A DNA stretch of 54,328 bases from assembly GCA_030695925.1 (NCBI GenBank), contig JAUYOH010000104.1, positions 1 through 54,328 on the forward strand, in the 5' to 3' direction. A model generated the notes under the pieces. That model did no database searches. It was not told the origin of the DNA and saw only the letters and a list, made by a program, of their open reading frames with translations. Positions 1,984 through 28,397 of the stretch are shown here, in pieces; within the stretch, counting starts at the first letter, position 1, and the number at the start of each line of letters is the position of its first letter. Position numbers and translations under genes: made by a program. The stretch is from Candidatus Omnitrophota bacterium (lineage in GTDB: Bacteria; Omnitrophota; Gorgyraeia; Pluralincolimonadales; Pluralincolimonadaceae).

Positions 1984-2101
1984 GTCCACATACGGACGTA
2001 AAGGACACATCCTTCTTTACCTATATTCCCTTATATATTTAATATTCTGTTACGTGCGAATAGGAAAGAGACGATACGTCCGTTATGTCCGTTCCTGTCC
2101 G
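1984..2101. repeat. GGAC/GTCC iteron cluster, candidate replication or regulatory site
   Basis: Three direct copies of GTCCG start at 2078, 2087 and 2097 (spacing 9 and 10). On the other side lie GTCCA at 1984, CGGAC at 1993 and GGAC at 2003. TACGTCCGT at 2075-2083 is exactly inverted as ACGGACGTA at 1992-2000. An AT-rich stretch (about 2017-2050) sits between the two groups. The cluster adjoins the 3' end of the D5-type helicase gene. Iterons beside a replication helicase are typical of phage or plasmid origins, so an origin or an initiator-binding site is the inference. Confidence 0.45.
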
Positions 2102-3396
2102 CTTTTTAGACTAAGACACGACTCAAAACCAATTCCCACCCAAGTTCGTGTCCGCCCCGCTCCAACCCTGTCCTCTGATATATTCCTAAAGTGTCGCAAT
2201 AATTCCGCCCCTAACTTCCGCTTACTGACTGGCCTATATCCGCTTGTCCTGCACCATTCGGAGTAAGAGGAATAAAGTCCCTGCTTTGATATGGACAGGT
2301 CTTCCCTGATGACGCAGTCCTCTTCCACAAATAACAGAACATTATTATTCTCCTTGCGGTATTCTTTTATCTCCTGCTGGATGCCTTCGCCTATACGAAA
2401 GTATCCTCGCCCCCGCAATCGCTTCAATCCTTCCAGACACCATAAGAAGATGCCGTCCAGCTCCACCGCTAATTCCGCCTTTAGGTTCTTATTTTGCTCC
2501 TCTTCCGCAAAGGTTTTATTAAATCGGATTATCAGAAGCCGTCTAAAGAAGCTATCTGTCTTGTCATCAACCCTTGGCAGGGCGTTTACGGCGAAAATTA
2601 ATTTGCAGAATGGCCTAAAGGTAAAAACTTTTTTATATTTATGGTCGGCGGTTAAAGAGTCCCCCGACACAATACCCTTAAAATTTGCGTCATAAACTTC
2701 GCTCTTGGCGTTCGTCTCTATGGAAATATTGGTAAGTTTCCCGAATAGGGAAGCGACGTAGAAATGATTATTAAATTTTTCGAGCGGTATTGCCACGAAG
2801 TTACCCGCACCCAATATCATTTGAAGAAGATGTAGCAGGGTGGACTTTCCGTTTGCGCCTTCTCCGAGGAGTAATAACGCTTTTTCAAATTTGGTCTCTC
2901 TGGTCAGGCATAATCCGAAAAACTCCTGCGTAGCCTCTATCTTTTCCGCATCCCCTTCAAATATCTCCGAGACGGTCTTGTCCCATTTCGGACATCGAGC
3001 ATCTGGGTCGTAGGAGACATCAAGCCTGATTGTGCTATATATATCGGGACTATGCGGTAATAATTCAAGGGCAGTCAGGTCAAGCAACCCATTTTTCAAG
3101 TTTAAAAAAGGAGTATTATTCAGCTTATCCGTTTCGAGGTAGGTATCGGTCTGCAAGGCAAATATGACCTCTTCCGCAAATCTTATTTTAAACTTATCGC
3201 CGACGACAGCCTTAATCCAGCTATGTATCCGCTCCTCGGCAACAGGGTGATAACAACCATCCTCGTATTCGTAGAACTCTTGGCAGAATATAATTTTATG
3301 TTCATCGCAGATTTTTTTAGCGATGGCTAAATGGCTTATGTCTTCAAGCCTTTTTGAAATCTCCTCGATTTTTTTATCAACGAGCGTGTTAACCAT
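2083..3396 (-). CDS. D5/P4-type phage replicative helicase (primase-associated)
   Basis: A 437-aa protein of the D5_N plus superfamily 3 helicase type that unwinds DNA at phage or plasmid origins. Residues about 1-140 match the D5_N-like lead-in. The Walker A GEGANGKST is at residues 178-186, a sensor-type Asn in FAVN at about 271, and the arginine pair in FFRR at 284-286. I chose the ATG at 3396: it overlaps the stop of the upstream zinc-finger gene in an ATGGTTAA junction and follows a GGGGGAC ribosome site. A longer open frame to 3462 exists but would read far into the upstream gene. No polymerase or TOPRIM catalytic domain is visible, unlike full-length P4 alpha proteins. Confidence 0.88.
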   Translation of the reverse strand: MVNTLVDKKIEEISKRLEDISHLAIAKKICDEHKIIFCQEFYEYEDGCYHPVAEERIHSWIKAVVGDKFKIRFAEEVIFALQTDTYLETDKLNNTPFLNLKNGLLDLTALELLPHSPDIYSTIRLDVSYDPDARCPKWDKTVSEIFEGDAEKIEATQEFFGLCLTRETKFEKALLLLGEGANGKSTLLHLLQMILGAGNFVAIPLEKFNNHFYVASLFGKLTNISIETNAKSEVYDANFKGIVSGDSLTADHKYKKVFTFRPFCKLIFAVNALPRVDDKTDSFFRRLLIIRFNKTFAEEEQNKNLKAELAVELDGIFLWCLEGLKRLRGRGYFRIGEGIQQEIKEYRKENNNVLLFVEEDCVIREDLSISKQGLYSSYSEWCRTSGYRPVSKRKLGAELLRHFRNISEDRVGAGRTRTWVGIGFESCLSLKSGQERT

Positions 3397-3946
3397 TAAA
3401 GTCCCCCAAACGACAAACAGCGTCCTTAAAGGACAGGCCAAAAAGATGCTCGGCAAGAGCAATCACATCCCCCGCTTTATGACAGCCGAAGCAATAAAAA
3501 GAATTAGTCTCAGGGTAAACATAAAACGAGGGGTCTTTATCAGGATGAAAAGGGCATATGCCTTTAAAATTTTCGCCCGACCGTTTCAATTTTAGAGACT
3601 CGGCGACTTCCAATATAGGCACGGCTTTTGCCCTCTCAACGGCTTCCCTAAAATCGACATTCGGAGACTTGCCTTCGCTTACGGCCTTCAGGTGTTTAAG
3701 CCGTTGAATCTGCCGAGTTGCTTCCAGCAGAGCTGGCTCAACATCCATCTTCACCAGCTCTATCATAAACCAACGGCTGAACTCGTCCTTAGTCGAAGCC
3801 CTAATCAAAATAAGGTTGAACTCGATGACGTCCTCTATTTCTTTAAGGCGTGCCCGCCACTCTTTGAGCTTTTGCGGGATAAACCTCTTCGCCTCTGGAA
3901 AAATGCTCACGAGCTCGGAATCATTTATATTTTTTATACGGTTCAT
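3389..3946 (-). CDS. CHC2 zinc-finger primase-like protein
   Basis: A 185-aa protein whose last 60 residues form a DnaG-type CHC2 zinc finger. The ligands are Cys131, His134, Cys152 and Cys155, in CPFH...YCFGC followed by KAGDVIALAEHLFGLSF. In DnaG primases this finger recognises the template and is followed by a TOPRIM domain; here the protein ends after the finger. The first 125 residues are helical and unassigned. It overlaps the downstream helicase gene by 8 bases and the upstream 48-aa ORF by 26, so the three are translationally coupled. The likely role is template recognition in priming, together with the helicase. Confidence 0.8.
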   Translation of the reverse strand: MNRIKNINDSELVSIFPEAKRFIPQKLKEWRARLKEIEDVIEFNLILIRASTKDEFSRWFMIELVKMDVEPALLEATRQIQRLKHLKAVSEGKSPNVDFREAVERAKAVPILEVAESLKLKRSGENFKGICPFHPDKDPSFYVYPETNSFYCFGCHKAGDVIALAEHLFGLSFKDAVCRLGDFNG

Positions 3947-15654: not shown

Positions 15655-16725
15655 TTACCTCTTGATCTTCCGCAAAATTAAAATGACCACGGTCATCAGC
15701 GCAACGGCTAAGATAGCGACGGCGACATAATTCAGTTTCCTTGACGTCGCCCGCAGCGTATATTCTTTAAATAAAAAATCAGCCGGTGAGAACTCCCATT
15801 TCGCGACATTCCTGCTGACCTCTTGTGAGTTGGCGCTTACGATCTTACCCGGCATAACAACTGATATATTAAACGGGTAACTCTTAAAGATCGACATGCC
15901 GTAGACTCCGAAGGCATCATCATAATTATCCTCCGCTAATCGTTCCCCGTAAGCACCGGCCTTCTCCTCGTACTTCTTATAGGCCTCTCTTAGTTTACGC
16001 AAAACCTCTTGCCGGTTTACTCCCTTGTCGCGCGATACGATATAATCGGCCATGAACGGCAGAAATTCTTCCTCGCCATATCTTCTCTCGTACTCATCCA
16101 TCTTTTCCTTAAATTCCACGTTATCTTCGTCGGCAAGGCTGCTGCCCTTCTTTAAGAACGCTGTCATTAAATAATCGACATAGGGACGATATCTCTCGTT
16201 TAGGAGCGCCTTTATTTTTTCTTTCTCAAGAAGCCGGGGGAATATATCCGTTAAATCCTTGACGGCCTCATCCAGGTTGTGGCTATACCATCTCTCGCAA
16301 AATTCCCTGAACTGTCTCTCATCGGTCGAATCCTTATAGGTCTCTTCATATTCATAAGTCGCGAATAAGATATTTTTCCTGATCTTTAGCGAGAACCTAT
16401 TATCTGAGACGTACCCCGGCTTTGCCCCCTTTCTCACATAATCAGGCGCGAGGTTATTTAAGTCCTTAAATAACCGCTTGGCCTCGTAGGTATAGTCCGG
16501 AGATTTGTCCTTTACGTCCTTCTCCGATTCCAAGCTGCCTCCGGCGGGTAAATCATAATTTTTGATCAATTCATCTTTCTCGCTTGCCCCGTCGGCGGTA
16601 TAGGTCGTTATCCTGAAACCCGAGCCGTCATCGTTTATCTTCGTCAAGGCCGTAAAATTGATATAGCACCCGCTTAAGGATAAGGTGACAATGGCCGACA
16701 AAAACAAAAGAGAAATCCTTTTCAC
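15655..16725 (-). CDS. Predicted lipoprotein with C-terminal membrane helix
   Basis: A 356-aa exported protein of unknown function. The N-terminus is a lipoprotein signal peptide with lipobox LSGC (Cys20). A membrane helix (about 332-350) is followed by the positive tail LRKIKR, so the protein would be held at both ends. The body is charged and probably largely helical, with a beta-rich start. The GTG start overlaps the nfnB stop (GTGA). Confidence 0.75.
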   Translation of the reverse strand: MKRISLLFLSAIVTLSLSGCYINFTALTKINDDGSGFRITTYTADGASEKDELIKNYDLPAGGSLESEKDVKDKSPDYTYEAKRLFKDLNNLAPDYVRKGAKPGYVSDNRFSLKIRKNILFATYEYEETYKDSTDERQFREFCERWYSHNLDEAVKDLTDIFPRLLEKEKIKALLNERYRPYVDYLMTAFLKKGSSLADEDNVEFKEKMDEYERRYGEEEFLPFMADYIVSRDKGVNRQEVLRKLREAYKKYEEKAGAYGERLAEDNYDDAFGVYGMSIFKSYPFNISVVMPGKIVSANSQEVSRNVAKWEFSPADFLFKEYTLRATSRKLNYVAVAILAVALMTVVILILRKIKR

Positions 16726-18119
16726 TTTTGCTCCTTAAGATATCTGTCCATCGCCACGGCCGCTCTCTTGCCGGCGCCCATAGCCGCGATGACCGTACCC
16801 TCGCCTATCGTGATATCGCCGCCTGCGAATATGCCCTTTATCGAGGTCATGTAATTTACGTCTATCTTAAGTTCTCCCGACTTCTCATCTACCGCAAAAC
16901 CTTTGGTGGTATGAGAGATAAGGGGGTTCGGGCCTTGCCCTATCGCTATTACAACCGTGTCTACCGGCATTACGTATTCCGAGCCCTGTATCGGGACAGG
17001 CCGCCTTCTTCCGCTTGAATCAGGTTCTCCTAATTCCATCTTTATGCAGGTCATGCTGCTCACCTCGCCTTTATCATTATCCTCTATCTTCAAGGGCGCA
17101 GTCAGGAACCTGAACTCTATACCTTCCTCTCGGGCGTGTTCGACTTCGGCAAGACGCGCCGGTGCCTCTCTCTCGGACCTCCTGTAGACGATCATCGCGT
17201 CTTTTGCCCCGAGCCGCTTGGCGACCCGCACGCAGTCTATAGCCGTGTTCCCTGCCCCGACGACGGCTACGCGCTGGCCGACCCTGACAGGCGTCTTGTA
17301 CTTGGGAAACTCATAAGCATGCATAAGGTTTACCCTTGTTAAAAATTCGTTCGCCGAATAGACGCCGTTTAAGTTCTCGCCCGGGATCCCGATAAAATAA
17401 GGAAGTCCCGCGCCGGTGCCTATAAATATCGCTTTATATCCGTCCTTGAACAGATCCTCGATGGTGAACGTCCTGCCAATAAGGATGTTATAATTTATCT
17501 CGACACCCAGAGACCCGATATAATCGGTCTCCATGTCAAGTATCTTCCTGGGCAGCCTGAATTCGGGTATGCCGTATCTTAAGACGCCGCCGCTTGAACT
17601 AAGCGACTCGAAGAGCGTTACTCTATATCCGAACTTTGCCAGTTCGGCCGCGGCTGTCAGCCCCGCAGGGCCTGAGCCCGCGACCGCTACTTTTATGTCT
17701 GATTTATTTTCGATCTTCGGCATAGAGGCATCGGGGTTATCCATCTCCCAATCGGCAAGGAACCTCTCAAGGCTGCCGATAGCGACCGGCTTATCTTTAC
17801 CCACCAGGACGCAACATACCTCGCACTGCGTCTCCTGAGGACAGACGCGCCCGCATATCGCCGGCAGGTTATTCTTCTCTTTTATCTTCCTTATGGCACC
17901 CCTGTAATCTTTCTTCGCTATCAACGCGACAAAAGCCGGGATATCTATATCGACGGGGCAACCCGCGATGCAGGGTTTCTTCTTACAGGCGAGACACCGC
18001 TTCGCCTCCAGAAGGGCCTCCTCCTCCGAAAACCCGAGCGCTACCTCCTTAAAATCCTTGATTCTCTCATTTGGGTCTCGTGTTCGCAGAGCCTGACGGG
18101 CAATTTTATCCTTAGCCAT
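16722..18119 (-). CDS. nfnB: NfnB, large subunit of NADH-dependent ferredoxin:NADP oxidoreductase
   Basis: A 465-aa flavoprotein of the GltD family. With NfnA it couples NADPH, NADH and reduced ferredoxin by electron bifurcation. N-terminal cysteines RCLACKKKPCIAGCP and CGRVCPQETQC hold two 4Fe-4S clusters. FAD binds at VAGSGPAGLTAAAELA and NADPH at VVGAGNTAIDCVRVAKRLG; the C-terminal GIFAGGDITIGEGTVI is typical. A longer open frame to 18269 exists, but the ATG at 18119, next to the nfnA stop, is the natural start. A glutamate synthase small subunit is the alternative, made unlikely by the adjacent nfnA. Confidence 0.92.
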   Translation of the reverse strand: MAKDKIARQALRTRDPNERIKDFKEVALGFSEEEALLEAKRCLACKKKPCIAGCPVDIDIPAFVALIAKKDYRGAIRKIKEKNNLPAICGRVCPQETQCEVCCVLVGKDKPVAIGSLERFLADWEMDNPDASMPKIENKSDIKVAVAGSGPAGLTAAAELAKFGYRVTLFESLSSSGGVLRYGIPEFRLPRKILDMETDYIGSLGVEINYNILIGRTFTIEDLFKDGYKAIFIGTGAGLPYFIGIPGENLNGVYSANEFLTRVNLMHAYEFPKYKTPVRVGQRVAVVGAGNTAIDCVRVAKRLGAKDAMIVYRRSEREAPARLAEVEHAREEGIEFRFLTAPLKIEDNDKGEVSSMTCIKMELGEPDSSGRRRPVPIQGSEYVMPVDTVVIAIGQGPNPLISHTTKGFAVDEKSGELKIDVNYMTSIKGIFAGGDITIGEGTVIAAMGAGKRAAVAMDRYLKEQK

Positions 18120-18120
18120 C

Positions 18121-18945
18121 CTACGACTCCAATGCTCTCTTTTCTTCTTCCAAAAATCTTTTATTCCTGTGAAGCAATTCGTCGAAATCCACTTTATAAC
18201 CATCGAATTCAGGGCCGTCGACGCACGAGAAAACTGTCTTGCCGGCCACGGTGCAGCGGCAGGTCGCACACATCCCGGTGGCGTCTAATAAAATGGCGTT
18301 TAGGCTTACTACCGTGGGGATGTTCTTCGGGTTTGCGGTCAAGGTGACCGCCTTCATCATCGGTATCGGCCCACAGCAGATTATCCGGTCTATCTTCTCG
18401 CCGCGCTCGAATAAACTCTTCAGGGCATCGGTAACGAGGCCTTTCATACCGTAACTCCCGTCATCAGTCGTGATAAGGACCTCGTCCGCTAATTTTCTGA
18501 ATTCGTCCTCCAATATCACCAGATCCTTGCACCTTGCGCCTAAGATGGTTATTACCTTATTGCCCTTATCCTTCAGCGCGCGGACGACCGTATATAACTC
18601 AGCCGAACCCACCCCGCCTCCTATCATGAGTACGGTCCCGAACTTCTCTATCTCGCTGGGGTTACCCAACGGCCCTAATATGTCCCTTATTCGGTCTCCT
18701 ACCTTAAGGGCACAGAGGTCTTTTGTCGATCTTCCCAGTTCTTGTATAATGAGGGTTATTACCCCGCGGGATTTATCCATATCACAAATAGTAAGCGGAA
18801 TACGTTCCGCGTATTCGTCAAGTCTTACGATTACAAATTGCCCCGGCCTTGCTCCGCGGACGACCAAAGGCGCCTCTACTTTAAGAAGTGTTATCGTATT
18901 CGCTAAGATTTTTTTCTCGATTATGTTATGCATATTATTAATCAT
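18121..18945 (-). CDS. nfnA: NfnA, small subunit of NADH-dependent ferredoxin:NADP oxidoreductase
   Basis: A 274-aa ferredoxin-NADP reductase-like subunit that binds FAD, NAD(H) and a 2Fe-2S cluster. The FAD region includes RPGQFVIVR and RIPLTI; the NAD-binding turn is MIGGGVGSAELY. The C-terminal cluster ligands are in TGMCATCRCTV and FSCVDGPEFDGYKVDF, the NfnA/PyrK-like signature. It is immediately followed by nfnB, the usual pair in anaerobes, and balances reducing equivalents for the one-carbon genes upstream in the operon. Confidence 0.92.
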   Translation of the reverse strand: MINNMHNIIEKKILANTITLLKVEAPLVVRGARPGQFVIVRLDEYAERIPLTICDMDKSRGVITLIIQELGRSTKDLCALKVGDRIRDILGPLGNPSEIEKFGTVLMIGGGVGSAELYTVVRALKDKGNKVITILGARCKDLVILEDEFRKLADEVLITTDDGSYGMKGLVTDALKSLFERGEKIDRIICCGPIPMMKAVTLTANPKNIPTVVSLNAILLDATGMCATCRCTVAGKTVFSCVDGPEFDGYKVDFDELLHRNKRFLEEEKRALES

Positions 18946-19945: not shown

Positions 19946-20802
19946 TTGGCTTTCCTCTTTGTCTTTATCTTTTTAAGTTCGGCCTCGTCCATCGTAAAAC
20001 TATGTTCTTCGGTGGGAAATTTCCCGCCCTCAACTTCTTCCCTATATTTCCTGAACGCCTCTGAAAGTTCGGGCCAGAGGTCCGCGTATTTCTTCACGAA
20101 CTTCGGCGTAAAACGGTCGAACAGTCCTATCATATCGTTTGTAACCAAGACCTGTCCGTCGCAATAAGGACCGGCGCCGATGCCTATTGTGGGGATGCTT
20201 GACTTTTCTGTTATTAATTTCGCGAGTCTGTCGGGCACGCATTCAAGAACGATCCCGAAACAACCCGCTTTTTCAAGCGCCAGAGCCGAATCGAGCAGCC
20301 GCTGAGCGTTCTTGGCATCCTTTCCCTGTACCTTAAACCCGCCGAGCTGTGTGGCTGTCTGCGGAGTAAGGCCGATATGACCCAAGACAGGTATGCCCGC
20401 TTTTACGAGGGTCTTCGTGATATCCGCCATCTCGACTCCGCCCTCAAGTTTTACCGCGCCGCATCCGCCTTCTTTTATGAACCTTCCGGCGTTTCTTATC
20501 GTCTCTTTCTCGTTTATGTTGTAGGACATAAACGGCATATCCCCGATTAGAAGCGCGTATCTGACGCCGCGCTTTACCGCTTTTGAGTGATGTATCATCT
20601 CGTCCATCGTGACAGGCACAGTAGATTCATAACCTAAGACCGTCATAGCGAGTGAATCGCCGACCAAGATCATATCCATCCCCGCCTCGTCTATGAGGCG
20701 GCCTGACGGATAATCGTATGCGGTCAGCATCGTTATCTTCCTGCCTTCTTCTTTCTTTCTTTTGATATCGGGGATTGTGATCTTCTTGCGCTCCATATCC
20801 AT
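19942..20802 (-). CDS. panB: 3-methyl-2-oxobutanoate hydroxymethyltransferase
   Basis: Transfers a hydroxymethyl group from 5,10-methylene-THF to ketoisovalerate, the first step to pantoate, and so draws on the folate pool made by the same operon. Signatures are MLTAYDYPSGRLIDEAGMD, ILVGDSLAMTVLGYEST, KLEGG and GHIGLTPQ, and IGIGAGPYCDGQVLV. I chose the ATG at 20802, which overlaps the metH stop in TGATG and follows a GAAAGG site; a GTG at 20805 is in frame. Length 286 aa is usual. Confidence 0.96.
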   Translation of the reverse strand: MDMERKKITIPDIKRKKEEGRKITMLTAYDYPSGRLIDEAGMDMILVGDSLAMTVLGYESTVPVTMDEMIHHSKAVKRGVRYALLIGDMPFMSYNINEKETIRNAGRFIKEGGCGAVKLEGGVEMADITKTLVKAGIPVLGHIGLTPQTATQLGGFKVQGKDAKNAQRLLDSALALEKAGCFGIVLECVPDRLAKLITEKSSIPTIGIGAGPYCDGQVLVTNDMIGLFDRFTPKFVKKYADLWPELSEAFRKYREEVEGGKFPTEEHSFTMDEAELKKIKTKRKAK

Positions 20803-23216
20803 CACGACCTTTCTTTCATGAGCGATTTGACGATATTTACCGCCTCAATGGCGTCACGGGCATAGGCGGACGCGCCTATCTCTTTGGCAAACGCCTCTGT
20901 CACTACCGCGCCGCCGACTATCGTCTTGAAATTCAGCTTCTGTTTCTTTAATTCCCTGATGACGCGTTCCATCTGGATCATAGTCGTCGTCATGAGCGCG
21001 CTTAGGCCGATTATATCGGCTTTATTCTTTATGGCTTGCTTTATTATTACATCCGACGGGACGCTCCTGCCCAGATCATATATCTTATAGCCGTGGTTAG
21101 CGAGGACTGAGATGACGATGTTCTTTCCGATATCGTGGATATCGCCCTCCACAGTCGCGATGACGATCGTCCCTTTGTCTTCCACCTCTTCCGGTTTTAT
21201 CTCTTTTTTTAACCTGCCAAAGGCGCGCTGAACCGCCTCGGCGGATAATATCACCTGCGGAAGAAAATATTCTCTTTTGCCGAACTTCTCTCCGACTATC
21301 TCCAGCGCCGGTATCAATATCGAACTATTTATTGTCAACGGCGCGATGCCGCTTGAGAGCGCCTCTTCTACATATGATACGATATTATCCTTATCGCCGT
21401 ACAGGACCGCCTCAAAGAGGCGCTGCCTGATATCTTTGGGTTTACCCGCTTCTGTTCGCGCCTCCTTCTTGACTATTTCCTGAGCCGGGCTCAAGGCATC
21501 TCTTAAGAATTTCTTTATCTCGGCCTCAGTCGTCTTACGTTTTATCTTCGCCTTCGCGACCCGGAACATATTGTCGTCGCTTGGGTTTATAATCGCGAGG
21601 TCTAATCCGAAGGCCAGCGCCAGCGAGAAGAAATCCGCGTTTATCTTCCTCCTGTTCGGAAGCCCGAATGAGATATTACTTACCCCCAAAGACGATGAGA
21701 AACCTTTTTTCTTTAATTCCCTTATCGCGCAGAGCGTCTCTTTGGCCTGTTCGGGCTTCGCGGAAATAGCGAGGGTAAGAGGATCAACTATTATATCTTC
21801 CTTCGCTATACCTAAAGAGACCGCCTTGTCAATGATACGCTTGGCAACCTTAAGGCGCGCTCTCGAATTCTTCGGGATACCGCGCTTGTCAAGCGCAAGC
21901 GCGAGGACCGCCGCCCCGTATTTCTTCGCGAGCGGCAATATGGATTTTATCTTATCTTCTTCTCCATTGACGGAATTTATGAGCGGCTTTCCGGCGGTTT
22001 CTTTTAACGCCGCCTCTATAGCGGCCGGGTCAGCGCTATCTATTGCGATCGGCACCTCGGTCACTGCTTCTACCGCGCAGACCGCGGAGACTATGGCAGC
22101 GGATTCGCTGCCTCCCGGGATACCTACATTCACATCCAGTATATCCGCGCCTTTATTTGTCTGCTCTATCGCTTCGCGCCTGATTATGACCGTCTTTGCG
22201 TTCCTTATCTCCTCCTCTAATTCTTTCTTGCCCGTGGGGTTTATCCTTTCACCGATTATCAGAGGCCTTGTCTTCGCGTTAAGCTCGACGGCTTTGGTCC
22301 TCGATGAGAGCCTGAACGCGGGAATATAAATTCTTTTTGCGGGCTTCCCGCTCTTCAGCGCGGCCTTTATTTCTTTAATATGTTCGGGCGTCGTCCCGCA
22401 GCATCCGCCGATCAGATTAACGCCGAGCCTCGCGAACTCGACCGCGTATCTCGCGAAAGACTTAGGGCTCTCGGGAAAGTATGTCTTGCCCGCGCGCAGT
22501 TCGGGAAGACCGGCATTAGGCAGGCACGATATAAATTTATTCGTGCGTGGCGTTATCTCTTTTATGACTCCTAAAAGCTCCTTCGGGCCTGTCGAACAGT
22601 TGGTCCCGATTATATCCGCGCCGAGCGACTGAAACAAGACAGCAAAAGCCGCAGGAGGAGTGCCATAAGTGCTGCGCTCGCCTCCCTCAAAAGTCATCTG
22701 CGCCTGGACCGGGATATTGCCGACTTCTCTTGCGGCTATAAACGCCGCTTTTAACTCTTTTATATCGGCGAAAGTCTCCAGTATTATGATGTCGCATCCG
22801 CCTTCCTTGAGCGCTTTTATCTGTTCCCTGAAGAAACCGACCGCTTCGTCAAAAGATAGGTCTCCCAGAGGAGTTATCTGTCTATCGAGAGGGCCGACTG
22901 ATCCCGCGACATAGGCTTTGCCGGAGGCGGCCTCTCTCGCTATCCTTACCGCCTCGTAATTTATCTTGTAGGTATCGTTCTGGAGCCCATATGTCTTAAG
23001 TTTTAACCTGTTAGCGCCGAAGGAGTTCGTCTCGATGATATCCGCGCCGGCCTTTATATAATCCGAGTGGATAGATTTTATGACGCCGGGCTTAGAAAGG
23101 TTTAATTCCTCGGGGCAGGCTCCAGCCTTGAGGGCGCCGCTCTCCTGCAGGAGAGTCCCTGTAGCCCCGTCGTAGATCAATATCTCACTTTTTAGGCGGC
23201 TTAATATGTTCCTCAT
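20802..23216 (-). CDS. metH: Cobalamin-dependent methionine synthase lacking the activation domain
   Basis: Transfers the methyl group of methyl-THF to homocysteine through cobalamin. The 804-aa protein has the homocysteine domain with zinc ligands Cys207 (GTNCSTGP) and Cys272/Cys273 (GGCCGTTPEHI). The pterin-binding barrel follows from about residue 318 (IIGERINPTGK), then the B12 cap (about 590-670) and the B12 domain with GDIHDIGKN, the cobalt-ligating His being His694. The C-terminal AdoMet-binding activation domain of E. coli MetH (1227 aa) is missing. The gene just upstream, overlapping by 32 bases, supplies it separately. Confidence 0.96.
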   Translation of the reverse strand: MRNILSRLKSEILIYDGATGTLLQESGALKAGACPEELNLSKPGVIKSIHSDYIKAGADIIETNSFGANRLKLKTYGLQNDTYKINYEAVRIAREAASGKAYVAGSVGPLDRQITPLGDLSFDEAVGFFREQIKALKEGGCDIIILETFADIKELKAAFIAAREVGNIPVQAQMTFEGGERSTYGTPPAAFAVLFQSLGADIIGTNCSTGPKELLGVIKEITPRTNKFISCLPNAGLPELRAGKTYFPESPKSFARYAVEFARLGVNLIGGCCGTTPEHIKEIKAALKSGKPAKRIYIPAFRLSSRTKAVELNAKTRPLIIGERINPTGKKELEEEIRNAKTVIIRREAIEQTNKGADILDVNVGIPGGSESAAIVSAVCAVEAVTEVPIAIDSADPAAIEAALKETAGKPLINSVNGEEDKIKSILPLAKKYGAAVLALALDKRGIPKNSRARLKVAKRIIDKAVSLGIAKEDIIVDPLTLAISAKPEQAKETLCAIRELKKKGFSSSLGVSNISFGLPNRRKINADFFSLALAFGLDLAIINPSDDNMFRVAKAKIKRKTTEAEIKKFLRDALSPAQEIVKKEARTEAGKPKDIRQRLFEAVLYGDKDNIVSYVEEALSSGIAPLTINSSILIPALEIVGEKFGKREYFLPQVILSAEAVQRAFGRLKKEIKPEEVEDKGTIVIATVEGDIHDIGKNIVISVLANHGYKIYDLGRSVPSDVIIKQAIKNKADIIGLSALMTTTMIQMERVIRELKKQKLNFKTIVGGAVVTEAFAKEIGASAYARDAIEAVNIVKSLMKERS

Positions 23217-23733
23217 ACACCTTCCTTATCGGGCGCGGTCCTTTCCTTATCAGGCCTATACAGGCAGTAACTGATTTTTCCGGGACCATTATGCAACTCT
23301 TTATGGCCTTGACACCCACTTTGTTCGCCTTTAATAGTTTTAATATCTTCACCTGGTCGAATATCGTCCAATCGCCGTATCCGGGACTAAATCTTATGAC
23401 CGTTGAATAACCTTCACTGCTTGCCTTTTTACGGATCAAGTCATCGACTTTTTCGGCGAGCGCTTCGGCTGCCTCTGAGCCGACGGCATCTAAGACCGTC
23501 GCGCGCGCTATCTCGCCTTTGGCGGCATAATCGTTGACCTTATGCGCTAATTGGCCGCCTATAGTGCAGACGAAGAGCGCTATCTTGGAAGCGCCTTTCA
23601 GATGCGCGGCGAGGGAGCGGCTTTTTATGACGGACCTCTTGCCGGAAATCCTTACTTCGTCCCGAAAGATTTTAACGTCGAATATCTCATAAGAGGCTTT
23701 CGGCTCGATAAGGGCATAGCCCTCCTCTATCAC
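23185..23733 (-). CDS. Stand-alone methionine synthase activation domain protein
   Basis: Homologous to the AdoMet-binding reactivation domain that restores oxidised cob(II)alamin in MetH. The RFSPGYGDW motif near residue 112, the CTIGG turn and the closing PEKSVTACIGL identify the family. It overlaps the metH start by 32 bases. The GTG at 23733 is the only conventional start, but the frame stays open upstream to about 23864. The residues there (IPTDLVLSRL and on to FISGVIEEGY) fit the family's normal N-terminal helix. The real start therefore probably lies upstream at a rare codon; an ACG at 23847 sits 8 bases after GGAG. Confidence 0.87.
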   Translation of the reverse strand: MIEEGYALIEPKASYEIFDVKIFRDEVRISGKRSVIKSRSLAAHLKGASKIALFVCTIGGQLAHKVNDYAAKGEIARATVLDAVGSEAAEALAEKVDDLIRKKASSEGYSTVIRFSPGYGDWTIFDQVKILKLLKANKVGVKAIKSCIMVPEKSVTACIGLIRKGPRPIRKVYEEHIKPPKK

Positions 23734-23861: not shown

Positions 23862-24734
23862 TTAAAGTCCGGCCGCGTCCAGGATGCGGGGAACTAATTT
23901 ATTCCAGCCTATAGACATGATGTGAATACCGCCGAGACGGGCCAGTCCTTTCAATTCCTTTATCGTGCGCGCCGCAATTTCCACCGCTTTCGCCTTAGTG
24001 TCGGCAGCACCCTCTATCTCCTTGATGAGATCCTCGGGAACAGATATCCCGGCGACATTCTCGTTCATGTATCTGGCCATATTCGCGGACTTAAGCAATA
24101 TGATACCGGCGATTATACAAGTATTATATCCTTTGACTTTCTCCATAAACCTCGCAAAGGACTCTACATCATAGACGCCCTGCGTCTGAAAGAATTCCAC
24201 TCCCGCTTTTATCTTCTTCTCAAACTTGATGAGTTCGGGCTCAATGGGATTAGCGCCGGGGTTGACAACCGCCCCCACACAGAACTTAGGCGTTCCTTTC
24301 AGTTCCTTTCCCGCCATATCCTTCCCCGTTTCCAGTTTTTTTACGACCTCTATCAACTGCACCGAATCGAGGTCGTAGACGGGCTTCGCCTCTGGATGGT
24401 CTCCGCGGGAAGGATGGTCTCCCGTAAGAACAAGTATATTTTCTATGCCCAGCGCGGCCGCGGAAAGCGCGTCGGATTGAAGCGCCAGCCTGTTCCTGTC
24501 GCGGCATGTCAACTGATATATCGGTTCTATCCCTTCTTTCTTCAAAAGATATGATACCGCAAGCGAGCCGAGCCTCATCACCGCACTCTGTAAATCGGTG
24601 ACATTTACGGCGTCAACCCTGCCTTTGGTAAGCTTTGCCTCTTCGATCAATTCCTTGACGTCGATGCCCTTGGGCGGGCCTATCTCACTGGTGACTACGA
24701 ATTTATTGGATTTTATCTTTTCTTTTAAGGTCAT
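23862..24734 (-). CDS. metF: Methylenetetrahydrofolate reductase
   Basis: Reduces 5,10-methylene-THF to 5-methyl-THF with an FAD-dependent TIM barrel. The 290-aa protein has the N-terminal VVTSEIGPPKG with the catalytic Glu, NVTDLQSAVMRLGSLA, LTCRDRNRLALQSD, ILVLTGDHP and GAVVNPGANP; the C-terminal GGIHIMSIGW is also conserved. It is paired with metV 17 bases upstream, as in acetogens where MetV is needed for MetF activity. Its electron donor is not evident from the sequence. Confidence 0.95.
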   Translation of the reverse strand: MTLKEKIKSNKFVVTSEIGPPKGIDVKELIEEAKLTKGRVDAVNVTDLQSAVMRLGSLAVSYLLKKEGIEPIYQLTCRDRNRLALQSDALSAAALGIENILVLTGDHPSRGDHPEAKPVYDLDSVQLIEVVKKLETGKDMAGKELKGTPKFCVGAVVNPGANPIEPELIKFEKKIKAGVEFFQTQGVYDVESFARFMEKVKGYNTCIIAGIILLKSANMARYMNENVAGISVPEDLIKEIEGAADTKAKAVEIAARTIKELKGLARLGGIHIMSIGWNKLVPRILDAAGL

Positions 24735-24751: not shown

Positions 24752-25417
24752 TCAGATTCTATTTTTGGTTATATTGCTTAAAACGACCTTCTTCGGCTTC
24801 ACGGATCTTGAATGGTCCTTCGCCGGCTGGATCTGCCTCATCTTGTCCAGTTCGCCGATGTCTTTAAGGCGTTTATAGATCAATATCCAGCCGCAATCGA
24901 TATCCGGATTTGTCTCGCATTTTCCGTCTTTGGCTCCGCCGCAGGGGCCGTTCTGCAGGCCCTTCGGGCAAAGCGTATTCGGGCAGTAACCGCCAGTGAT
25001 AGCTAGGGTGCAGTCGCCGCACAAAGAACAGGCCTCGCTGAAATGACCCGCCCTTTCCACGACGCCCAAAAAGAGCGTATCGGTGGCGGGATAGACTTTT
25101 TTAACCGTCCCCTGAAATATAGTGTAAGTGCCGTCGCCACAGGACATCGACAAGATGGCATCTGCCTTTGAGATGATGTCCTTCTTGTCGCGCGCCCTCC
25201 TCTTTACCTCCAGGAGATGGCACGGCGGGTCCCACACCTCGGTTGCGAGCACCTCTTTACCGTGCTGCTCCAGTATCTCTTTCATCTTCTTGACCTCGTC
25301 TTCACCGCCGGTCTTGCAGACGGTAGCGCACTGGGCGCATCCTACAATGAAGATCTTTTTGCAGTCTTCCAGATATTTTAATATCTGATCTATAGGTTTC
25401 TGTTTTGTAATAATCAT
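24752..25417 (-). CDS. metV: MetV, zinc/iron-sulfur partner of methylenetetrahydrofolate reductase
   Basis: A 221-aa member of the MTHFR C-terminal-like family found beside metF in acetogens. It is cysteine-rich: VGCAQCATVC near residue 36, then SMSCGDG, a CSLCGDC knuckle, and C-rich GGYCPNTLCPKGLQNGPCGG near residue 150. These suggest iron-sulfur or zinc sites that relay electrons to MetF. I chose the ATG at 25417, overlapping the folD stop by 4 bases (ATGA). The frame stays open to 25618, but that part only reads through folD in another frame. Confidence 0.9.
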   Translation of the reverse strand: MIITKQKPIDQILKYLEDCKKIFIVGCAQCATVCKTGGEDEVKKMKEILEQHGKEVLATEVWDPPCHLLEVKRRARDKKDIISKADAILSMSCGDGTYTIFQGTVKKVYPATDTLFLGVVERAGHFSEACSLCGDCTLAITGGYCPNTLCPKGLQNGPCGGAKDGKCETNPDIDCGWILIYKRLKDIGELDKMRQIQPAKDHSRSVKPKKVVLSNITKNRI

Positions 25418-26235
25418 CTTCCCGGCCTCATTTGTTTCTTGAACAACTCCACACAGTTGCGCATAGACATCATGACCGTAAGCGGCCCTACGCCGCCCGG
25501 CACAGGCGTTATGAAACTTGCCCTGCGCCTGGCCGCCTCGAATTCCACATCGCCGACTATCTTGTCGCCGACCTTGTTTATCCCGACATCGACTACGATC
25601 GAGCCGCGTTTGACCCAACTGCCCTTTATGATATTTGGCTTACCTACGGCCACGACCAGTATCTCGGCATGACCGATATGAGTCCTTAGATTTCCCCTCT
25701 TTGCCGTGCCTATATGGCAGACCGTCACGGTCGCGAGTTTATCCAACAGCGACATAGCGATCGGCTTTCCGACAAGATCTCCGTGGCCCACGACAACCGC
25801 CTCCCTGCCGAAGAGGCTTATGCCGGTCGATATTAGAAGCTCCATCACTGCCGAGGCTGTCGGATTTATCTTCTCCACATTCTTTTTCGGGTCGATAGAG
25901 CAGAGGGCCTGTCTTAGGTCCAACCGTTTGGGAAGAGGCAGTCCCAGCATAATTGCCGTTATCCGCTTGTCTTTGTTTAATTTTTCAATCTGTCTTATTA
26001 AGTTCTCCTGAGAGATTAGACTCCCGAATCTCACTATTCTATAACCGATGCCTATCTGCTTTGCTATCCGCTCCTGCGAATTTATATAAACGGCCGCGGC
26101 TTTATCTCTGCCTATCTGGATCACCGAGAGCAAGGGGACCCTGCCGCATCTCTTCTTGATAGCGGCTACCTCGCGCCTTAACCGCGCTTTTATCTTCTCG
26201 GCTAACGCTTTTCCGTTTAACAATCTCGCCGGCAT
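25414..26235 (-). CDS. folD: FolD-family methylene-THF dehydrogenase with degenerate cyclohydrolase site
   Basis: A 273-aa FolD homolog: IKGSWVKRG, VVDVGINKVG and TPVPGGVGPLTVMM are intact. The catalytic residues numbered as in E. coli are not: Tyr50 is kept, but Lys54 is Gln (YINSQER), Gln98 is Gly (LGLPLP) and Asp121 is Glu (NVEKINP). The cofactor loop reads GHGDLVGKP in place of the usual GRS/GAS type. Loss of the lysine abolishes cyclohydrolase activity in studied FolD enzymes while dehydrogenase can remain. It directly follows fchA (no gap), which encodes a separate cyclohydrolase. It is most likely a one-function dehydrogenase, perhaps NAD-dependent. Confidence 0.93.
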   Translation of the reverse strand: MPARLLNGKALAEKIKARLRREVAAIKKRCGRVPLLSVIQIGRDKAAAVYINSQERIAKQIGIGYRIVRFGSLISQENLIRQIEKLNKDKRITAIMLGLPLPKRLDLRQALCSIDPKKNVEKINPTASAVMELLISTGISLFGREAVVVGHGDLVGKPIAMSLLDKLATVTVCHIGTAKRGNLRTHIGHAEILVVAVGKPNIIKGSWVKRGSIVVDVGINKVGDKIVGDVEFEAARRRASFITPVPGGVGPLTVMMSMRNCVELFKKQMRPGR

Positions 26236-26718
26236 CTAACGCCCTATCCTTTTTTTATTCAGTCTCACCAGATTATCCGCCGACCTTTCCGAAGCTGAAA
26301 GCAAGGCTTCAGCCACGTAAAGGTCTCCTTTAAGGTGCCTGGTTCCTATCTTTTTGAGGATTCCGCATAATTTACCCGCGTCTTTTGATAGTTTTGCAAT
26401 CTCTGCAACGCATGCCGCCGCTCTCTTCAATGAATCCTGACTTCTTGTCTCGGCGTACTTATTGTAGACTTTCGCGTCCTTTTCTATGTGTGCATTCAAT
26501 CTATCTCTTAACGATGTCGCCTTCCTCGCAATCGACTTCGCTTTTTTTTCATATTTCTTATATTTCTTTTTGCCTATAGTAAAATTCGCAACTTTTATGA
26601 TTAACGCCGCCCCGACTGCGCCGGTCAAGGCCGCGGCCGCTCCGCCTCCCGGAGACGGCCTTCTGGCTCCGAGCGCGTCACAGAAAGAAATTATCCTGTT
26701 TTTTGCGCTTATCTTCAT
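26236..26718 (-). CDS. fchA: Methenyl-THF cyclohydrolase of the cyclodeaminase (FchA) family
   Basis: A 160-aa all-helical protein of the formiminotransferase-cyclodeaminase family. In clostridia and acetogens FchA interconverts 10-formyl-THF and 5,10-methenyl-THF. The family signature RRPSPGGGAAAALTGAVGAAL is near residue 20, followed by KVANFTIGKKKY. It lies between fhs (1-base overlap, TGATG) and folD, exactly where the cyclohydrolase step is needed. It is somewhat shorter than typical family members (about 200 aa). Confidence 0.88.
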   Translation of the reverse strand: MKISAKNRIISFCDALGARRPSPGGGAAAALTGAVGAALIIKVANFTIGKKKYKKYEKKAKSIARKATSLRDRLNAHIEKDAKVYNKYAETRSQDSLKRAAACVAEIAKLSKDAGKLCGILKKIGTRHLKGDLYVAEALLSASERSADNLVRLNKKRIGR

Positions 26719-28397
26719 CAGAACAACCCCGTTATATTCCCCTCGTCGTCTATGTTTATGCGTTCGGCAATCGGCGTTTTGGGCATCCCCGGCATAAGAT
26801 TCAGTTCGCCGGTCAAGGCGATCAAAAATCCCGCGCCGGCAGAGACCTTTATCTCGCGCACCTTAAGCCGCCAGCCGGTCGGAGCTCCCTTCACCTTCGG
26901 GTCGTCCGTAAACGACAGGTGCGTCCTTGCCATATTGACTGGCAACTTATCGAACGCGTTCTCGGTTAAAAATACTATATCGTCCTCCGAAGTCCCAACG
27001 TAGACCGCGCCTTCCGCTCCGTAAATCTCCCTGGCTATATTATCTATTTTGTCTTTTATCGGAAGTTCCGGGCCATAAAGCGGCTTGAACTTTGAAGGGT
27101 GCTCCTGTAAAGTCGCAAGGACCGCCTCGGCTAATTTGATCCCGCCCTCGCCGCCAGAAGCGACTACGTCCGCGACCTCGGCTAATACGCCTTCACTCCT
27201 GCAAAATTCCCTTATCCTGTTTAATTCCTTATCGCTATCGTCAGGAAACTTGTTTATCGCGACAACCGGCCATATGCCGAATTTCTTGACATTCTCGATA
27301 TGGCGTTTGAGGTTAGAGAGCCCTTCCTCAAGCGCCTCTAAATTTTCTTTTCCCAAGTCCTCGTCCTTTGACCCGCCGTGCGATTTAACCGCCCGCGCGG
27401 TCGCCACGACGACAGCGCAATCGGGTTTTAATTTTCCCTGCCTCGAGACGACATCGCAAAATTTCTCGAGCCCCAGATCCGTTCCGAAGCCTGTTTCTAT
27501 GACAGCATAATCCGCGAGTTTCAGCGCCAATTGAGTCGCGAGAACGCTGTTCGTGCCGTGGGCGATATTTCCGAACGGCCCCATATGGACGAGCACAGGT
27601 TGACCTTCCAAAGTCTGGACGAGGTTCGGTTTTATCGCGTCTTTAAGAAGCGCGGTCATAGCGCCGACGACCTTTAATTCGGATGCCGAGACAGACCTTC
27701 CTTTCGTCGTAACACCAACGATGATCCTGCCTAACCTCTCTTTTAAATCTTTGTAGCCGGTCGTAAGGGCAAGGCAGGCCATTATCTCAGAGGCGGCCGT
27801 GATATCAAAACTGTCCCGCCTCCTTACCGCACCCTCGCTTAAGCCCACCTGTATGTCGCGCAGGCTCCTGTCGCACAGGTCTATCGCCCTGCGCCAGATG
27901 ACCCTCTTGGGGTCTAATTTAAGCTCATTTCCTTTCGCGAGGTGATTATCGATTATCGCGCTTAACAGATTGTGCACCGCCGTAATGGCATGGATATCTC
28001 CTGTAAAATGAAGGTTTACGTCTTCCATCGGCAGTATCTGGGCGTATCCCCCGCCACAACCGCCACCCTTCATGCCGAATGCCGGACCTAAAGACGGCTC
28101 ACGTAAACACAAAAATACCCTCTTCTTAAGGCGCCCCAAGGCCTGAGTCAGGCCTATCGAGATACAGGTCTTACCTTCGCCGTATCTTGTCGGCGTCATA
28201 GCGGAGACGAGGATGAGTTTTCCGTCGGGCCTTTGCTTTAATCTCTGCAAGACGCCAAGGCTCACCTTGGCTTTGTAATTCCCGTATAGCTCAAGCTCGT
28301 CGCCGTTTATGCCGGCTTTTGTCGCAACCCCCAATATCTGTTTAGGATGCGTAAGCCTGGCGATCTCTATCGTAGAATGCGGTTTTTTTATGAACAT
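26718..28397 (-). CDS. fhs: Formate-tetrahydrofolate ligase
   Basis: Condenses formate with THF using ATP to give 10-formyl-THF, the entry step of the Wood-Ljungdahl methyl branch. The 559-aa protein has the P-loop TPTRYGEGKTCISIGL near residue 67, then REPSLGPAFGMKGGGCGGG, PMEDVNLHFTGDIHAI, and ATARAVKSHGG. The ATG at 28397 places the conserved STIEIARL 8 residues in, as in the family. There is no ribosome site: a consensus promoter ends only 10 bases before the ATG, so the mRNA should be leaderless or nearly so. First gene of a 14-gene operon. Confidence 0.97.
   Translation of the reverse strand: MFIKKPHSTIEIARLTHPKQILGVATKAGINGDELELYGNYKAKVSLGVLQRLKQRPDGKLILVSAMTPTRYGEGKTCISIGLTQALGRLKKRVFLCLREPSLGPAFGMKGGGCGGGYAQILPMEDVNLHFTGDIHAITAVHNLLSAIIDNHLAKGNELKLDPKRVIWRRAIDLCDRSLRDIQVGLSEGAVRRRDSFDITAASEIMACLALTTGYKDLKERLGRIIVGVTTKGRSVSASELKVVGAMTALLKDAIKPNLVQTLEGQPVLVHMGPFGNIAHGTNSVLATQLALKLADYAVIETGFGTDLGLEKFCDVVSRQGKLKPDCAVVVATARAVKSHGGSKDEDLGKENLEALEEGLSNLKRHIENVKKFGIWPVVAINKFPDDSDKELNRIREFCRSEGVLAEVADVVASGGEGGIKLAEAVLATLQEHPSKFKPLYGPELPIKDKIDNIAREIYGAEGAVYVGTSEDDIVFLTENAFDKLPVNMARTHLSFTDDPKVKGAPTGWRLKVREIKVSAGAGFLIALTGELNLMPGMPKTPIAERINIDDEGNITGLF

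Follow-up and report, generated by a model that had tools for sequence, protein, structure and literature searches.

A putative dehydrogenase-only FolD paired with FchA in Omnitrophota, and candidate complementary FolD pairs in Clostridia

Introduction

The combination of a dehydrogenase-only FolD with a separate cyclohydrolase, FchA, is already known in bacteria, from Clostridium perfringens, whose FolD was reportedly found by Aluri et al. in 2016 to act solely as a dehydrogenase, the cyclohydrolase activity being supplied by FchA. In yeast, the NAD-dependent monofunctional dehydrogenase MTD1 (PDB 1edz) also lacks the catalytic lysine of bifunctional enzymes. MTD1 catalyses the same reaction as that proposed here for an Omnitrophota FolD, but is a eukaryotic enzyme with only remote sequence similarity (E 4e-5) and has no FchA partner. 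From Peptostreptococcus productus, a bacterial methylene-THF dehydrogenase that lacks cyclohydrolase activity has been described and reported to use NADP (Wohlfarth 1991, as related in PMC5688156 and PMC6443876), and our comparison with it is confined to that description.

In bifunctional FolD, Lys54 serves as the general acid/base of the cyclohydrolase reaction, Gln98 positions this lysine and Asp121 binds the pterin (PMC3338484). Published mutagenesis has established that Lys54 is needed for cyclohydrolase activity and dispensable for dehydrogenase activity (PMC5688156, PMC3338484). The Escherichia coli K54N variant retains ~19% of its dehydrogenase activity with no detectable cyclohydrolase, whilst Q98H retains about 8% and ~1% of the two activities, respectively (PMC5688156). 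FolD proteins are nevertheless annotated routinely as bifunctional, an assignment inherited by genome-based metabolic models of Omnitrophota and Clostridia.

A folate gene cluster in Omnitrophota

The window, by which we mean the whole stretch of 54,328 nucleotides analysed here, derives from a Candidatus Omnitrophota bacterium and harbours a tightly packed cluster in the order fhs-fchA-folD-metV-metF (Table 1). The fhs and fchA genes have one base in common (TGATG), the stop codon of fchA directly abuts the start of folD, and the overlap between folD and metV spans four bases (ATGA). Both folD and fchA are intact; FolD passes the cut-offs of its two Pfam domains and FchA scores 111.7 bits against an FTCD_C cut-off of 24.5, which bears out the assignment of this neighbour to the cyclodeaminase family in an earlier note on this DNA.

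Table 1. Coordinates of the folate genes and of the FolD features discussed in the text
Feature	Coordinates	Strand	Evidence or remark
metF, methylene-THF reductase	23862..24734	-	MTHFR 8.7e-41
metV-like gene, methylene-THF reductase C-terminal family	24752..25417	-	PF12225 1.6e-34
folD, methylene-THF dehydrogenase of FolD family	25414..26235	-	273 aa; Pfam THF_DHG_CYH 3.5e-29 and THF_DHG_CYH_C 3e-51
Cofactor loop GHGDLVGKP	25762..25788	-	Most FolDs of the phylum have a GHS(E/D)IVGKP-like loop
Junction of 16-residue hinge deletion, Pro125-Thr126 of window FolD	25858..25863	-	Alignment to E. coli FolD
Codon 121, GAG (Glu), replacing Asp121	25873..25875	-	Alignment to E. coli FolD
Codon 98, GGA (Gly), replacing Gln98	25942..25944	-	Alignment to E. 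coli FolD
Codon 54, CAG (Gln), replacing the cyclohydrolase lysine	26074..26076	-	Alignment to E. coli FolD
fchA, cyclodeaminase/cyclohydrolase family, presumed methenyl-THF cyclohydrolase	26236..26718	-	160 aa; FTCD_C 4.5e-32
fhs, formate-THF ligase	26718..28397	-	FTHFS 4.3e-236

The window FolD resembles the bifunctional enzymes E. coli FolD and human MTHFD1 in its fold, in the possession of both domains and in sequence (37-38% identity). It differs from them in lacking a hinge loop and in carrying Gln54, Gly98 and Glu121, as numbered by alignment to E. coli MG1655 FolD, in place of the Lys54/Gln98/Asp121 set. The alignment and the codons themselves confirm these three residues as first read in the earlier note; the gap-free alignment that it claimed holds only to about residue 125, after which 16 hinge residues, overlooked at the time, are missing. 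Lacking Lys54 and encoded in a genome with an FchA-family gene, the protein has the sequence pattern of the C. perfringens type. It is likely, in our judgement, that this folD encodes a methylene-THF dehydrogenase that would be unable to hydrolyse methenyl-THF, with the neighbouring FchA taking over that step; we infer that FolD is active as a dehydrogenase and FchA as a cyclohydrolase.

FolD and FchA across Omnitrophota

A sample of 384 Omnitrophota genomes was searched for FolD and for FTCD_C, the family of FchA, giving matches in 364 and 357 genomes, respectively. Among the matches listed, and with a few of the 'neither' cases inferred, 356 genomes possess both, 8 FolD only, 1 FchA only and 19 neither, such that the two are jointly present or absent in 375 of 384 (Fisher p 7e-25). 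Six of the eight FolD-bearing assemblies without an FchA match have a cut or partial folD, truncated by a contig end in four (G326, G353, G371 and G341) and read only partially in two (G057 and G180); the other two, G313 and G092, are 80% and 72% complete. In the 138 genomes, the window's included, in which FolD residues and gene neighbourhood were read, fchA adjoins folD (same strand, within 1.2 kb) in 129, and in two (G029 and G085) it lies elsewhere in the genome.

Residue 54 is Gln in all 136 FolDs that cover the position and residue 121 is Glu in 138/138, whilst residue 98 is variable (Gln in 85, His in 26, then Gly, Asn, Ser, Ala and others). This phylum-wide invariance excludes sequencing error or chance as the source of Gln54, and because of it the Gln54/Glu121 combination is best read as a conserved alternative site and not as a decaying triad. 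Several suggestions of the earlier note find no support in the same counts: that the window FolD in particular had lost its triad, that Glu121 could weaken folate binding, and that its cofactor loop is unusual, given that a GHS-like loop is a feature of the phylum and the loop His occurs in 89 of 138 FolDs.

FolD and FchA in Clostridia and other bacteria

The comparison was extended to 150 Clostridia genomes, drawn from the phylum to which C. beijerinckii belongs; 148 have FolD and 88 have FTCD_C. FolD residues were read in the 148, a FolD being termed intact if it has Lys54 and Gln98 and altered if it is changed at 54 or 98. Every genome with only altered FolD is FchA-positive (58/58), as against 25 of 79 with only intact FolD, the remaining 54 being negative (p 5e-19). 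When adjacency was judged in stretches of ~3 kb, fchA adjoined 41 of 72 altered and none of 93 intact FolDs. The 25 FchA-positive genomes with intact FolD count against the division of labour; their matches are non-adjacent and may be explained by the breadth of FTCD_C, which also takes in products of histidine-breakdown operons, one of them encoded in a hut operon in Peptoclostridium.

A scan of the genome collection used two approximate Clostridium FolD sequences as queries, with only the retrieved sequences serving as evidence. Gln54 with Asp121 kept was found in C. beijerinckii, C. puniceum, C. neonatale, C. uliginosum and other named Clostridium species. These relatives of C. perfringens, whose FolDs stand in here for its own, also have Gln98, their cofactor loop reads GRSNIVGK, and no fchA was found next to their folD; the Omnitrophota form differs in its Glu121, its mostly GHS loop and its adjacent fchA. 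Amongst the genomes searched, FTCD_C is present in 25/25 with a Gln54 FolD (17 from Clostridium and 8 from Omnitrophota), as against 0/5 with a Lys54 FolD, a co-occurrence that the earlier note had proposed as a check and that, together with the associations in Omnitrophota and Clostridia, supports the core of its proposed division of labour with a dedicated FchA. Other altered FolDs include that of Collinsella aerofaciens (Ala54/Phe98, with fchA beside it), that of Acetoanaerobium noterae (also Ala54/Phe98, in a genome with an fhs-fchA-metV-metF cluster) and that of Fusobacterium vincentii (Gln54/Asn98, with an FchA-like gene elsewhere).

The earlier note had held that many Lys54 relatives beside fchA would speak against its reading. 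Such relatives are indeed frequent in Clostridia, yet they always carry Glu98, and none combines Lys54 with Gln98. One Clostridia FolD group (L284, L288, L289, L293, L294 and L298-L301) keeps Lys54 but has Glu98 and the loop GRGETVGK, and most of its members are adjacent to fchA; in these proteins, Lys54 might be quenched by Glu98. An Aneurinibacillus sp. genome that lacks FTCD_C encodes a Lys54 FolD whose loop is GHSHIVGR, and the loop His alone is therefore no mark of the Gln54 type.

Complementary FolD pairs in Clostridia

An altered FolD without FchA was found in six Clostridia genomes, all of which carry a second FolD with Lys54, Gln98 and Asp121 and a changed cofactor loop, located within a few kilobases of the altered gene in three of them. 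Gln54 FolDs in genomes lacking fchA, which the earlier note had listed as potentially refuting, thus exist literally in four genomes (G467, G535, G507 and G470), but each has a second, Lys54 FolD. Four further Clostridia genomes combine a FolD pair with an FTCD_C match, weak in two.

In the ten paired genomes (FolDs L273, L278, L279, L285, L267, L259, L262, L251/L321, L257/L322 and L253/L323), the altered member is changed at 54 and has Glu121; eight are Gln54/Glu121 and group with the Omnitrophota FolDs in a single clade (support 98). The ten Lys54 members likewise form one clade (support 100), with Tyr50, Lys54, Gln98 and Asp121 invariant in the nine aligned. Their nucleotide loop is unrecognisable in four (LVGDSFDL...) and altered in the others (VVGWSIEIGKP or the like, with VHP or a similar motif in place of CHS), whilst the predicted fold is intact.

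The simplest reading is that each pair apparently consists of one dehydrogenase-only and one cyclohydrolase-only FolD, loss of cofactor binding being less certain in the six milder Lys54 members than in the four with an unrecognisable loop. On balance, evolution appears to have split FolD into complementary single-activity enzymes, a Gln54/Glu121 dehydrogenase in Omnitrophota and some Clostridia and a cyclohydrolase-only second FolD in the ten Clostridia genomes. If so, the pairs would represent natural separation-of-function variants of an enzyme that carries out both reactions at a single site. We know of no cyclohydrolase-only FolD in the literature, and a non-exhaustive search for FolD paralogues or such an enzyme returned nothing relevant by title or abstract. 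The Clostridia pairs, the Gln54/Glu121 form found throughout the phylum and a simple rule to predict single-reaction FolDs, based on residues 54 and 98 together with fchA, are new to the extent that this could be checked.

Independence of the association

The association between altered FolD and FchA could also reflect shared descent of a gene cluster instead of functional dependence. On a FastTree phylogeny of 212 sequences, from which the trait columns had been removed, only about six changes of this state are seen, and genome counts consequently overstate the independent evidence. Four independent pairs are available, none against the rule, a number too small for a sign test to reach 0.05. 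Shared descent is still unlikely as the whole explanation: separate altered groups nested inside intact clades, a Met54 pair and a Gln54/Asp121 pair, are also FchA-positive, and simple co-inheritance does not explain why every altered FolD lacking FchA is accompanied by a Lys54 FolD.

The hinge deletion and the integrity of the fold

The residues missing from the window FolD correspond to about 126-141 of E. coli FolD, a hinge loop between the two domains. In combination with Gly98 and Asn119, this 16-residue deletion is specific to the window's own family (five genomes, the window's and four sisters). Gly98 and the deletion count against the proposed dehydrogenase role, in that they could harm this activity too, and a crippled FolD, its reaction performed by another enzyme, would be compatible with the position of the deletion between the domains and with the low residual dehydrogenase activity of E. 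coli Q98H (PMC5688156). We regard such a loss as quite unlikely, since no FolD other than the short form was found in the four sister genomes, which are 92-97% complete, and this form is 68-74% conserved among them. G002 shows a similar deletion, and four further genomes (f8/g21; L009, L010, L019 and L098) a partial one at the same place. Furthermore, the AF2 model shows a confident, complete fold (pLDDT 96.5), which Foldseek matches to human MTHFD1 (9iuo, TM 0.94) as well as to E. coli FolD.

A hinge-loop deletion at the site of the window's is also seen in L059, from another Omnitrophota lineage. A second FolD in the assembly (L379; Gln54, full length), encoded in an fhs-fchA-folD-metF set on contig C94, was considered as this organism's own and rejected as probably foreign: it is 82% identical to the FolD of another Omnitrophota family, each sister genome has one FolD and the assembly is 7.4% contaminated, which together make contamination the probable source.

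Catalytic consequences and cofactor preference

A bifunctional Omnitrophota FolD, in which Gln54 and Glu121 form an alternative site that hydrolyses methenyl-THF and FchA merely adds capacity, is very unlikely. Invariance of both residues over the phylum does resemble selection for function more than decay. Against this, K54N abolishes cyclohydrolase in E. coli (PMC5688156), in agreement with the premise of the earlier note that the lysine is essential for this activity and not for the dehydrogenase; residue 98, whose role is to position Lys54, varies freely among Omnitrophota; and fchA almost always accompanies a Gln54 FolD, a Lys54 FolD being present where it is missing in Clostridia. A formimino-THF cyclodeaminase that serves amino-acid or purine breakdown and lacks cyclohydrolase activity is a highly improbable identity for the window's FchA-family protein, for although FTCD_C spans both activities and has the Peptoclostridium hut member, the window gene is placed directly between fhs and folD, in overlap with the former and abutting the latter, with metVF following, an arrangement that recurs across the phylum.

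With a dehydrogenase-only FolD and FchA as cyclohydrolase, the reductive (Wood-Ljungdahl) direction would begin with formyl-THF made by Fhs, which FchA would close to methenyl-THF; FolD would reduce this to methylene-THF and MetVF would convert it to methyl-THF, all steps being encoded in one tight gene cluster. A Gln54 FolD is also predicted to be insensitive to carolacton, because E. coli K54N is insensitive (PMC5688156).

The changed NAD/NADP preference at which the earlier note hinted is a reasonable possibility. The cofactor would be NAD(H) rather than NADP(H), to judge from the loss of the usual contacts to the NADP 2'-phosphate. These contacts involve the Arg173/Ser197 region of the human enzyme and Arg191 of E. 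coli FolD. The window FolD has instead the loop His and an Ile at the 191 position, which is Ile in 103 of 138 Omnitrophota FolDs, with no Arg among the states listed. The contact roles are in part those given in PMC6443876.

Neighbouring genes

Two overlapping genes at 16722-18945, on the same strand as the folate cluster, resemble both subunits of an NfnAB-type transhydrogenase and bear on the question of which cofactor FolD uses. The region 20802-23733 encodes a methionine synthase-like protein with homocysteine, pterin and B12 domains and without a reactivation domain (Met_synt_B12), which is present as a separate small protein adjoining it. At 2083-3462 lies a gene for a D5_N/DUF5906/Pox_D5-like primase-helicase, possibly of mobile-element origin.
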